Shown here piece after piece: positions 146 through 6,760 of a stretch of DNA of 64,000 bases. The DNA is from Lachnospiraceae bacterium (GTDB lineage Bacteria; Bacillota; Clostridia; Lachnospirales; Lachnospiraceae). Under the pieces are notes generated by a model. The model searched no databases. It was not told the origin of the DNA and saw only the letters and a program-made list of their open reading frames with translations. Where the stretch lies: assembly GCA_022510685.1 (NCBI GenBank), contig JAFLTA010000009.1:1-64000 (forward strand), given 5' to 3'. The first letter of the stretch is position 1, and each line of letters starts with the position of its first letter. The position numbers were made by a program, and so were the translations under genes.

Positions 146-174
146 TTGACATATTTCTATTCAAGTGATATAAT
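146..174 (+). promoter_or_regulatory. sigma-70/SigA-type promoter for the Rpn-family gene
   Basis: TTGACA (146-151), 17-nt spacer, TATAAT (169-174); both hexamers match consensus exactly. Confidence 0.8.
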
Positions 175-201: not shown

Positions 202-981
202 ATGAGCATTTCTTATGAAGAACAGGAGAAACAGATTCAACAATTTCGTCCAATAGACGATGCATTTTTTCGGGTGCTGGCGGACGATGTGAAATTTTGT
301 CAGGAAATACTCCGTGTTATTTTGCAGGATAATGAGTTGACAGTGCAGTCTGTAACTACACAGAAAGATGTAAAAAACTTAGCAGGTCGTTCCGTGCGTT
401 TGGATGCATTATGTACACTAGGGAATGATGCGAAATGTAATGTAGAAGTACAGCGTTCTGATAATGATGACCACTTGAAACGAATCCGCTACAACTCTTC
501 TTGTATCACTGCCAGCGAAACAGAACCGGGAGAAAAGTTTGAAAATGTACCTACTGTAACCGTAGTGTATATTTCGGAATTTGACTTCTTGAACGAAGGT
601 AGGACAATTTATCATATCGACCATGTAATAAGAGAAACCGGAACCGTGGTTGATAATGGCTTATATACCGTTTGTGTGAATACTAAGATTAATGACGGGT
701 CAGACATTGCAGAGTTAATGCAATGTTTTACCCAAACGGAAGTTGACAACAAAAAATTTCCAGTATTTTCTAATAGAATGTATTATTTAAAACATTCGAA
801 AGGAGGGTCAAAAATCATGTGTAGAGTGATGGAAGAATATATACAGGACATTATGAACGAAAAAATCAAAAATGCTTTGAACAAGGGCTTTACTCCGGAA
901 TTGATTGTTGATTGTTTAGATGTGCCCTTGGAGCAAGTTCTTAAAATACAGGAAAAAAATCTTATTAAAAAAACAATATAG
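202..981 (+). CDS. Rpn family recombination-promoting nuclease / PD-(D/E)XK nuclease family transposase
   Basis: ORF 178..981. N-terminal DDAFFRVLADD and RLDALCTLGNDAKCNVEVQRS (D...ExQ) motifs typical of Rpn proteins. ATG at 202 preferred because the TTG at 178 lies at the predicted transcription start. Confidence 0.8.
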   Translation: MSISYEEQEKQIQQFRPIDDAFFRVLADDVKFCQEILRVILQDNELTVQSVTTQKDVKNLAGRSVRLDALCTLGNDAKCNVEVQRSDNDDHLKRIRYNSSCITASETEPGEKFENVPTVTVVYISEFDFLNEGRTIYHIDHVIRETGTVVDNGLYTVCVNTKINDGSDIAELMQCFTQTEVDNKKFPVFSNRMYYLKHSKGGSKIMCRVMEEYIQDIMNEKIKNALNKGFTPELIVDCLDVPLEQVLKIQEKNLIKKTI

Positions 982-998
982 CCGGCATAAAACATTAC

Positions 999-1028
999 AA
1001 AAGAGGACTTGTATTCAAGTCCCCTTTT
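999..1028 (+). terminator. probable terminator after the Rpn gene
   Basis: AAAAGAGGACTTG TATT CAAGTCCCCTTTT inverted repeat with one mismatch, just after the stop codon. Confidence 0.55.
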
Positions 1029-3403: not shown

Positions 3404-6373
3404 TCACTCTTTTTTGTCAGCTTTCTTTTTGAGCTTTTGTTCTGCTTTTTTTCGATTGTAAGCATCAATTCGCACTGTCACTCTTTTGTCTATCGGAAAA
3501 TGCGGTTCCTGGAAAAATGTCGTCTTCATGATAACATCATCCCTGTACTCGGTTGCCTCTATTTCCATAAGCTTATCATAAACGACATCTGCCGCTTTTT
3601 CAATACTTTTATCGTTTACATCGGCTGTCATTCCCAGCAAAACAACCGTACAGAAATCTATGGTATCCATCACTGCTACAGCCTTAAATGCATCATTTGA
3701 TATTTTTTTCGGTACATGGTATTTCTTAAAATATTTTGACACCGAATCATAAAAATCAGGACGTCCTAAAAGTTCATATATACTATTATAGCGTTTTGCC
3801 ATCATGATAAAGGCATCAGGTCGCGTGTCTAAGTTGCGTACACTCTCCGGTATTCTTGACTCCAATACCAGCGACAGCAAAGTGTCGGATTCTAATTTCA
3901 GAATTTCCTCCGGGAATTGTAACGCTGCAAGTCTCTCTTCGGCGGTATTCAGATATCTGAAATCTTTGTCATATCTTGAAAATGGAAAATGATAGCTTCC
4001 GTCATCTCCTTTCCACTGGGATACGTCCCGTATCAATTCCGGATACTGTTCTATCACCTGCGGAAACTCCAGTTCGTTTTCATCCGGCAAATAGATATTG
4101 ACAGATGTCTCCTGTTCCACATGGTCCGCCTGTGGCTCGATATACTCCACCTTGAGATTCAACTGCTTGGCATAAACTTCGGCAGTGCTCCCCTTATAAC
4201 ACCGGATAGTGAGTCTCGTATTGGGCACGACCTTCAGCGTTTCGTCTTCAACCACTTCTTTGTCAAATACTGCCTCATTCTCTACATCCTCAGGAAATTC
4301 CATATTCGGATTTAAGACAGTGACCGTCTCCAATTTACAACCACCAAAGCATCTCCCGCCTACTTTTTCCACAGAGCTTGGAATTGTAACTTCCTTCAAT
4401 GGTTCACACCAAAAAAATGCATTGCGCCCTATTTCCTTCAATCCCTCCTGCATAGTAATCTCTGAAAGCGGGCTATGCATAAATGCACACTCTCCGATTT
4501 TTTCCAGATTGCTTCCTTCTTCCATCTCCAATCTTTCCAGCGAAGAAGCCAGAAAAGCAGAGTTACCGATTTCTACAATCGTATTCGGTATGGTGACTGT
4601 TTTGGTCATTGAAATATTATTGCTAAACGTTGACTCAAGCGCTGTTGCCTCCTTAGGTAAAAGGACTTCTGCCTGTGTATAGTACGACAAACTCTCTGAA
4701 TGTTGAACCAACAATTTCCCGGACTGCGTCATGACAAAATACGGTTCTCCATACACCTGTCTGATATCTTTTGGTGTATACTCAGAGTCCTCAGGGTCAT
4801 ATCCATAGGAAGTAAGTTCTTTAATCATTTTCTGTTCTTCCGGTTTAGAATCCAGTTTCTGCCATAGCACATCTTCTCTCGAGTTATATTCTTTTACACG
4901 AAATCCGTTTTCCTGAAAGTAATCCCATACGTAACTGTCCTTTGCACAATATACCACCATATCCTTCGGACAGCCCTCAAACGCATTGTCATCAATTTCA
5001 TCAATATTAACCAGCTCATCTATAATTAATGTCCTTAAATTGGTACAGTTTGAAAAAGCATTTTCTTGAATACTGTAGGTTTCATCTAAATTATAATAGG
5101 AAAAGTACATTTTATGAAGCAGATGCCCGCGCACAAAATCCACCACATTTCCCTTATCATCCACTACCATCGCAGGAAACCCTTCCGTTTCCGTGATAGC
5201 CCAGTGAATATCTACATCAGAGACATCATTACTGTTAAGGGAATCCGGAAAAGTGGATAACAGTGTGACTGCCATTCCAATCACGACAAAAACAGCGGCA
5301 CTAAGCCATCTCGTCCCCTTCTGTGCAATACGCTCTATCCTTTTCTCTACACTACGTTTACTTCCGGACATTTGCGTGGAAAGGTTCATATAACCGCTGC
5401 TCCATGCCTGCTTTTTTATAACCGAAAGTAATGTCTCTCCGTAACCCATACGATGATATTCTCCCAGCAGGGCAATCACACGCTCGTCACAGGCAAGCTC
5501 CGCATCATTTTCCGATAAGCGGGCACAAAGCCATACCAACGGATGATACCAATACATGACCAGACATAAATTTCTTATGACAGACCAAAACACATCTCCC
5601 TGTTTGAAATGACAGATTTCATGAGCCAGACAATATTGCAGTGATTTTTTATCCTGCATCATTTCCGGTGCAATATAAATATTTCTGCCAAAAAGAAATG
5701 GCGAAGCTGCCTGTTCCAGTAGATATACCTTTCCCGGAATATGTTTAACGGGAAGTCCTCCCTCATACGAAACCCGGACCTTTCTCAACGAAAGATAAAA
5801 AATGAGATTGCGGAGTAAAATCACTAAAATCATGACACAGACACCGCTACCATAAACCACCATAAGAATCTTTGTGATACCGGATTGTTTCTCTACACCA
5901 GTAGTATCCTCTGCCCCGACAGCATTCTTTTTCTCTGAAATACCGGCAATATCTGCCTGCTCCATAGATTGCTTTCCATCGTCAGACAGGGTTTCTGCCA
6001 GTCCGTCCTCCACTGCGATTTCACTGTTTACCGGAGTTTTGCTGTCTGATGCAATCCCATTGTCTTCAGATAGTTTAATATCCGTTGCTGTACCGTTGTC
6101 TGTTAGACTGTCGCCTTCTATTGCATCCGTATGAACAAAATCCTGTGCCATCTGTGTAAATGTTCCCACAGATTCTCTAATCAAAGGTAAGATGGAAATA
6201 CTGCTATCCGGCATGGGAACCCATGCAAACAGAAGGCGTACTGCCACAATCAGCCAAAGTGCATACTGAAATCTGGCAGAAATTCTTCCGTCAACAATGC
6301 GCCGCAATCCCAAAAACATAAGCAATAAAAATGTTGTTAATGCAACTGTCTCCCACATAATAAATCCCCCCAA
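3404..6373 (-). CDS. BlaR1-like M56 family metallopeptidase with BspA-type leucine-rich repeat ectodomain
   Basis: N-terminal TM segments, HEICH zinc motif (LAHEICHFKQGD) and ENDAELACDERV typical of M56; repeats such as IPNTIVEIGNSAFLASSLERLEMEEG and IGRNAFFWCEPLKEVTIPSSVEKVGGRCF are LRR_5/BspA-like. Confidence 0.8.
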   Translation of the reverse strand: MGGFIMWETVALTTFLLLMFLGLRRIVDGRISARFQYALWLIVAVRLLFAWVPMPDSSISILPLIRESVGTFTQMAQDFVHTDAIEGDSLTDNGTATDIKLSEDNGIASDSKTPVNSEIAVEDGLAETLSDDGKQSMEQADIAGISEKKNAVGAEDTTGVEKQSGITKILMVVYGSGVCVMILVILLRNLIFYLSLRKVRVSYEGGLPVKHIPGKVYLLEQAASPFLFGRNIYIAPEMMQDKKSLQYCLAHEICHFKQGDVFWSVIRNLCLVMYWYHPLVWLCARLSENDAELACDERVIALLGEYHRMGYGETLLSVIKKQAWSSGYMNLSTQMSGSKRSVEKRIERIAQKGTRWLSAAVFVVIGMAVTLLSTFPDSLNSNDVSDVDIHWAITETEGFPAMVVDDKGNVVDFVRGHLLHKMYFSYYNLDETYSIQENAFSNCTNLRTLIIDELVNIDEIDDNAFEGCPKDMVVYCAKDSYVWDYFQENGFRVKEYNSREDVLWQKLDSKPEEQKMIKELTSYGYDPEDSEYTPKDIRQVYGEPYFVMTQSGKLLVQHSESLSYYTQAEVLLPKEATALESTFSNNISMTKTVTIPNTIVEIGNSAFLASSLERLEMEEGSNLEKIGECAFMHSPLSEITMQEGLKEIGRNAFFWCEPLKEVTIPSSVEKVGGRCFGGCKLETVTVLNPNMEFPEDVENEAVFDKEVVEDETLKVVPNTRLTIRCYKGSTAEVYAKQLNLKVEYIEPQADHVEQETSVNIYLPDENELEFPQVIEQYPELIRDVSQWKGDDGSYHFPFSRYDKDFRYLNTAEERLAALQFPEEILKLESDTLLSLVLESRIPESVRNLDTRPDAFIMMAKRYNSIYELLGRPDFYDSVSKYFKKYHVPKKISNDAFKAVAVMDTIDFCTVVLLGMTADVNDKSIEKAADVVYDKLMEIEATEYRDDVIMKTTFFQEPHFPIDKRVTVRIDAYNRKKAEQKLKKKADKKE

Positions 6374-6379
6374 TCCACA

Positions 6380-6760
6380 TTATCTGTTAGTCTTTGTCTT
6401 TGCCCTCTCCAATATGGCACTCAATTCCTCCAACTCCTCAGCAGAAAAACTTTGCCGCTCTACCATTGTATGTAGCATCAAGCCGAATTTCCCGTGATAT
6501 ACTTTTTTTAAAAAATCCTCCGTCTCCTGCCGCTCGGCATCTGCTTCTGAAATCAACGGATAGAACTGTTTCGTCCGTCCGTCCGTCTCATGTCTGACAG
6601 CCCCCTTCTCCTCAATGCGTTTCAAATAGGAAATAATGGTGTGTTTCGTCCATCCGGTCTGCTTTTCCATAGCTTTTGTCATTTGCGTAATCGTTTGTGG
6701 TGCATCCTTCCACAATAACTGCATCAGTTTCCATTCTCCATCCGATAATTTCATGTGCAT
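6380..6760 (-). CDS. BlaI/MecI/CopY family transcriptional regulator
   Basis: Winged-helix repressor sequence LSDGEWKLMQLLWKDAPQTITQMTKAMEKQTGWTKHTIISYLKRIEEKGAV; adjacent to the BlaR1-like gene. Confidence 0.9.
   Translation of the reverse strand: MHMKLSDGEWKLMQLLWKDAPQTITQMTKAMEKQTGWTKHTIISYLKRIEEKGAVRHETDGRTKQFYPLISEADAERQETEDFLKKVYHGKFGLMLHTMVERQSFSAEELEELSAILERAKTKTNR

Follow-up and report, generated by a model that had tools for sequence, protein, structure and literature searches.

Rpn proteins of Escherichia coli are toxic anti-phage nucleases inhibited by internally translated small proteins, as the original prediction for the present locus had stated and as the published work bears out (PMC10327210). 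The small protein, RpnS, is translated separately, binds the full-length nuclease, RpnL, and blocks DNA cleavage and toxicity (PMC10327210). Separate translation is established for five E. coli genes and one C. difficile gene, the latter yielding RpnS in an E. coli host (Zhong et al. 2023, PMC10327210). RpnP2 lowers phage plating, and rpn genes have been argued not to be transposases (PMC10327210).

A gene of similar layout lies at one end of the window, the 64,000-nucleotide stretch of a Lachnospiraceae contig analyzed here. It is probably, at a likelihood of about 80%, an rpn-type (RpnL/RpnS) gene-within-gene toxin–antitoxin unit from the PDDEXK_2 branch of Lachnospiraceae. The features of the locus are as follows.

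146–174, forward strand: promoter of the rpn-type gene, TTGACA, 17 nucleotides, TATAAT, with TG before the −10 box; 12/12 match.
202–981, forward strand: putative RpnL-type gene for a 259-residue PD-(D/E)XK (PDDEXK_2) nuclease with a C-terminal RpnS domain; assigned from PF12784, TIGR01784 and motif residues.
799–807, forward strand: internal Shine-Dalgarno (SD) sequence AAAGGAGGG, the strongest of 402 internal sites and conserved beyond amino-acid constraint.
817–981, forward strand: internal ORF, ATG at 817 to stop at 979–981, for a 54-residue RpnS-like putative antitoxin; homology to RpnA-S (7TH0).
841–852, forward strand: region of the long first helix that carries extra repeats in paralogues from the same genome (8 residues on contig C48, 8 on C22, 4 on C35), none of them in the window gene.
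997–1030, bidirectional: intrinsic terminator 3′ of the rpn gene, with hairpins at 1005–1022 (forward) and 1030–997 (reverse).

The locus has in common with the RpnL/RpnS genes of E. coli and C. difficile (PMC10327210; 7TH0) a PD-(D/E)XK nuclease, an internal SD and ATG giving the C-terminal domain alone, a small protein predicted here to have three helices, four-residue repeats that vary from copy to copy, and a scattered, multi-copy distribution. The main ORF runs from the ATG at 202 to the stop at 979–981 and stands alone between its own promoter, a perfect extended −10 sigma-70 promoter, and its terminator. TTGACA–17 nt–TATAAT-like boxes also precede the paralogues on C48, C22 and C35. An inverted repeat, AGATTTTC...GAAAATCT, occupies positions 9–49, where the contig begins, 5′ of the gene.

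The encoded nuclease matches PF12784 (PDDEXK_2) above the cut-off, with an E-value of 7.5e-9. The match to TIGR01784 (NCBIfam, “Rpn family recombination-promoting nuclease”) has an E-value of 7.6e-12 and a score of 45.6 bits, below the cut-off of 52.1, and covers the nuclease domain only. That cut-off is an annotation threshold, not a biological feature. The window nuclease, a PDDEXK_2 protein just under the TIGR01784 threshold, differs in this from E. coli RpnL. A further difference, from whole RpnA, is that the profile match is limited to the C-terminal domain of the window protein; the nuclease part has no profile match to RpnA, which counts against the RpnL/RpnS reading. The catalytic residues of the PD-(D/E)XK domain are intact: all of 15 aligned homologues have D68, E82 and Q84, as expected for this motif, and the internal M206 is just as invariant. 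In a Foldseek search with an AF2 model of the full-length protein, matches were weak overall, the top one being the restriction enzyme EcoT38I (E 5.8e-4, low TM-score). A PADLOC search of the window gene gave no hit, which counts against the RpnL/RpnS reading, as does the score below the TIGR01784 cut-off. The N-terminal domain belongs to the sequence family of the PDDEXK_2 and TIGR01784 “putative transposase” proteins; that name implies transposition, whereas the window gene sits between its own promoter and terminator. We know of no biochemical data for the PDDEXK_2 branch, and a literature search of partial coverage found no later paper extending the RpnL/RpnS arrangement to PDDEXK_2 genes of Lachnospiraceae.

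The internal start was located exactly where the original prediction had placed it, with AAAGGAGGG at 799–807, an in-frame ATG at 817 and a 54-residue ORF whose translation is identical to the one given. Within the SD, GGAGG at 802–806 lies 10 nucleotides from the ATG at 817–819, and because 817 − 202 = 615, or 205 codons, the ATG is in frame and encodes residue 206. SD strength was scored as the duplex energy with the anti-SD ACCUCCUUU over nucleotides −20 to −5 before an ATG. The scoring covered 402 in-frame internal ATGs from 49 predicted genes of the window, and the SD at 799–807 came out strongest, at −12.4 kcal/mol; the mean is −2.7 kcal/mol, and only 1.7% reach −9. It also exceeds the start of the rpn gene itself (−7.3) and about 98% of the presumed gene starts in the window. 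A near-consensus SD inside a coding sequence had been called unusual, and as the strongest of the 402 it proves to be so.

E. coli rpn genes also have an internal transcription start. In the present family, internal −10 boxes are not enriched relative to synonymously recoded sequence (z 0.2 and 0.8), which counts against the RpnL/RpnS reading, and the idea of a conserved internal promoter behind a short transcript was rejected on these values. The window gene contains a single 9/12 promoter-like match, at 757–786.

Conservation of the start was assessed in 126 homologues collected from the genus, the family and the phylum. Two groups carry Met at the internal-start site: class A, with 56 members and the pattern ..KGG/EGG/KGV..MC/MS.., and class B, with 28 members and the pattern ..KWRxEYMT... 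The ATG is kept in all 84 of these relatives, each with a complete C-terminus. The SD is written in the codons AAA GGA GG or GAG GGA (K-G-G or E-G-G) in class A and TGG AGG (W-R) in class B. When the eight codons upstream of the ATG were recoded synonymously, using codon usage from the genes themselves, class A had an observed SD energy of −10.02 against an expected −8.10 (z −5.8, n = 40 after clustering at 80%), and class B had −8.92 against −5.49 (z −6.9, n = 24). The excess persists in classes A and B under clustering at 50% identity (z −4.1 and −6.2) and at 40% (z −3.0 and −4.8). Individual codons are skewed in the same region, with AGG used for the Arg after Trp in 12 of 13 class B genes (16% usage) and GGA for the Gly at −4 in 38 of 53 class A genes (35% usage). 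Homologues that keep the protein while losing the SD or ATG were looked for and did not occur, and the proposal that both are conserved beyond amino-acid constraint was borne out.

A third group, class C, comprises 33 homologues, mostly stricter TIGR01784-like proteins. The start is absent from the class A and B column, and an SD and ATG lie about 28 residues upstream instead, as in GAGGAGGAATTTGATATG, with an observed energy of −9.97 against an expected −5.82 (z −7.3, n = 23). Since classes A, B and C all carry an SD and ATG, the internal start persists in three branches, in one of two positions. In class C genes such as L082, L080 and L118, the start falls at M-V/I-A-x-x-N and the predicted small protein is roughly 90–130 residues long. 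The proven E. coli rpnA start, M244, is likewise the top-scoring internal ATG of its gene (−8.3). Taken across these comparisons, the recoding statistics show selection on the SD and ATG of the internal start in the Lachnospiraceae PDDEXK_2 family.

Could the SD be a by-product of the encoded Lys-Gly-Gly and of codon usage? The residues of class A alone do give a fairly strong SD, the synonymous mean being −8.1, but the observed class A sequences exceed even that (z −5.8), class B reaches its SD through Trp-Arg with mostly AGG, and class C uses yet other residues. Other conserved Met columns, which served as controls, show no SD excess (z −1.4, +0.3 and +2.7). With these values, an origin as a by-product is scarcely credible. 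Selection might instead act on an SD-like sequence that initiates nothing and slows ribosomes at a domain boundary while the nuclease folds. A pause would be plausible at this site, between the nuclease and the C-terminal domain. It would not need an ATG 6–10 nucleotides downstream, however, and all three classes retain an SD paired with an ATG, at two positions and over different amino acids. Both also survive in two remnants described below (L040 and L188) that have no in-frame upstream fusion, and in E. coli the corresponding site has been proven to initiate translation (PMC10327210). A folding pause is thus very unlikely, and initiation at the internal ATG is the preferred explanation.

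Homologues also occur on contigs deposited as phage. Of five such unannotated faecal contigs, four (L238, L239, L241 and L242; MT835957, MT836987, MT837179 and MT838048) have an internal SD and ATG in the homologue. Several genomes of the genus contain an interspersed hairpin repeat of about 50–60 bp with the core ACGTCCRGTGGACGT....GCGCGGACCGRANCGGAGNGGAG, of which one genome has 18 copies. In about five rpn genes (L018, L155, L192, L193 and L196) a copy separates the nuclease part from the internal start, and further copies lie elsewhere in L208–L236.

The small protein itself resembles RpnA-S. A profile built from 18 of the small proteins matches RpnA-S, PDB 7TH0, over 41 of 49 residues with an E-value of 5.2e-4, and compared directly with E. 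coli RpnA-S it scores 22.9 bits, the best of 500 shuffles being 8.2. The two are collinear from the start codon to within one residue, so that the start aligns with the proven RpnA start M244. Designed helical-repeat proteins outscore 7TH0 in the PDB profile search and sigma-factor helix-turn-helix segments score too, which makes the fold class generic; more weight falls on the collinearity that begins at the proven start. The AF2 model of the small protein (pLDDT 82) has three helices, at residues 3–22 (long), 27–34 and 38–53, and RpnA-S is described as three helices, the first one long (PMC10327210). In a Foldseek search with this model, 7TH0 was absent from the best 50 matches, which were generic HTH-like bundles; this too counts against the RpnL/RpnS reading, as do the higher scores of the designed proteins. 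At the level of sequence, the profile comparison shows the small protein to be homologous to E. coli RpnA-S. The description of the ORF as a candidate intragenic antitoxin is well supported by the conserved SD and ATG and by the match at M244.

Several relatives share the genome. Full-length copies are found on contigs C48 (83% identity), C22 (80%) and C26 (35%), and a remnant is found on C35. In named genomes, a scan of the genome collection with a single protein as query gave one relative, 68% identical, on a contig of an uncultured Lachnospiraceae MAG. Compared with the window gene, the extra first-helix residues on C48, C22 and C35 are EYA(Q/R/K)E-type repeats. Among homologue pairs more than 60% identical in the nuclease domain, the length difference in this helix is a multiple of four in 56 of the 71 unequal pairs, and in some relatives the repeats form long arrays, as with the many GMKQ units of L056. 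The family thus has a hypervariable number of four-residue repeats, 8–20 residues after the internal Met. Such variation is a hallmark of Rpn proteins, in which a single extra repeat abolished cross-neutralization (PMC10327210).

Some copies have lost the nuclease. The remnant on C35 (L040, positions 469–909) derives from a fourth close rpn copy in the same genome; it keeps the promoter and the first 66–68 codons, the catalytic region is deleted, and the sequence resumes at AAGGAGG. Its small ORF (742–909, 55 residues) is intact with its own SD and is out of frame with the 75-residue N-terminal fragment, and an in-frame TAA lies upstream of the retained GGA, six codons before the small-ORF ATG. 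An independent case in another genome, L188, has a 152-codon N-terminal frame followed by TAA CAG AAA GGA GTT GCG GCT ATG and a 57-residue small protein; its nuclease fragment ends in a different frame. A third, L199, is a small ORF with an SD, upstream of which no nuclease fragment was found; it is apparently a nuclease-less orphan. Pairwise dN/dS between the C35 small ORF and the intact paralogues of the genome is 0.15–0.23, and 0.32–0.39 among those paralogues, the C35 values resting on about 50 codons with near-saturated dS; the low ratio is only suggestive of a retained small protein. Preferential keeping of the small ORF by remnants is not claimed, since the nuclease part makes up about 80% of the gene and random lesions strike it more often anyway.

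These small ORFs lacking an in-frame nuclease (L040, L188 and L199) resemble the separately encoded RpnS of ypaA/rpnE-S (DUF4351). That gene arose by downstream duplication, whereas two of those found here arose by deletion of the nuclease part, leaving the SD and the small ORF. As a tentative proposal, the remnant in this genome and those in its relatives may be stand-alone antitoxins, possibly kept because they neutralize matching Rpn toxins, whether from other copies or from incoming elements. If so, a deletion inside a gene-within-gene toxin would have given rise to an immunity gene that consists of the antitoxin alone.

An internal start that is real might also produce a subunit or chaperone required by the nuclease rather than an inhibitor. 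The comparative evidence for the start is equally compatible with that role, and an internally started protein with a complementary role is on record in Cas11d (cited in PMC10327210), which Cas10d of type I-D CRISPR needs. However, RpnA-S, to which the profile matches, blocks cleavage and toxicity in E. coli (PMC10327210), and small ORFs retained in remnants that have lost the catalytic region, as well as the orphan L199, fit a stand-alone role better. A required subunit is therefore improbable, and an antitoxin of the RpnS type remains the favored reading.

The window rpn gene lies at the end of the contig, leaving one flank for inspection. The neighbors on that flank are a protein with no Pfam match, a DUF4253 protein, a BlaR1/M56 protein and a penicillinase repressor. 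No defense genes were seen next to the rpn gene on this flank, which counts against the RpnL/RpnS reading, and no defense-island context was seen there. The BlaR1-type M56 peptidase (3404–6760, reverse strand, 984 residues), which adjoins the penicillinase-repressor gene, carries BspA-type leucine-rich repeats, an unusual-looking sensor fusion.

The favored reading suggests a mechanism modeled on E. coli. One promoter (146–174) would yield a single mRNA carrying both starts. The ATG at 202, with the weaker SD, would give the 259-residue nuclease RpnL, and independent initiation at the ATG at 817, with its very strong SD, would give the 54-residue, three-helix RpnS. Identical in sequence to the C-terminal domain of RpnL, RpnS would use its long first helix to pair with that domain and would hold the PD-(D/E)XK nuclease inactive. 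The number of four-residue repeats in this helix would set the specificity of pairing, and on this proposal the rpn copies of one genome would consequently not cross-neutralize. Release of RpnS, for instance in phage infection, would free the nuclease. For the window gene, separate translation, antitoxin action, toxicity, neutralization and phage defense are all probable by analogy with the E. coli genes, and in the same sense the locus may form the self-contained toxin/antitoxin defense unit that the original prediction had envisaged. The features of the locus, the selection on its SD and ATG, the homology to RpnA-S and the variation in repeat length between paralogues are direct results of the sequence comparisons.

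The arrangement is already known from E. coli; what these comparisons add is its evolutionary conservation in a distant branch of the family to which the E. coli genes belong. Selection appears to act on an internal antitoxin start across the whole of a large, multi-copy Lachnospiraceae family that is labeled “putative transposase”. Depending on the branch, the start occupies one of two places, and the small ORF can persist in remnants that lack the catalytic region. RpnS-like small proteins of this kind are missed by standard annotation.
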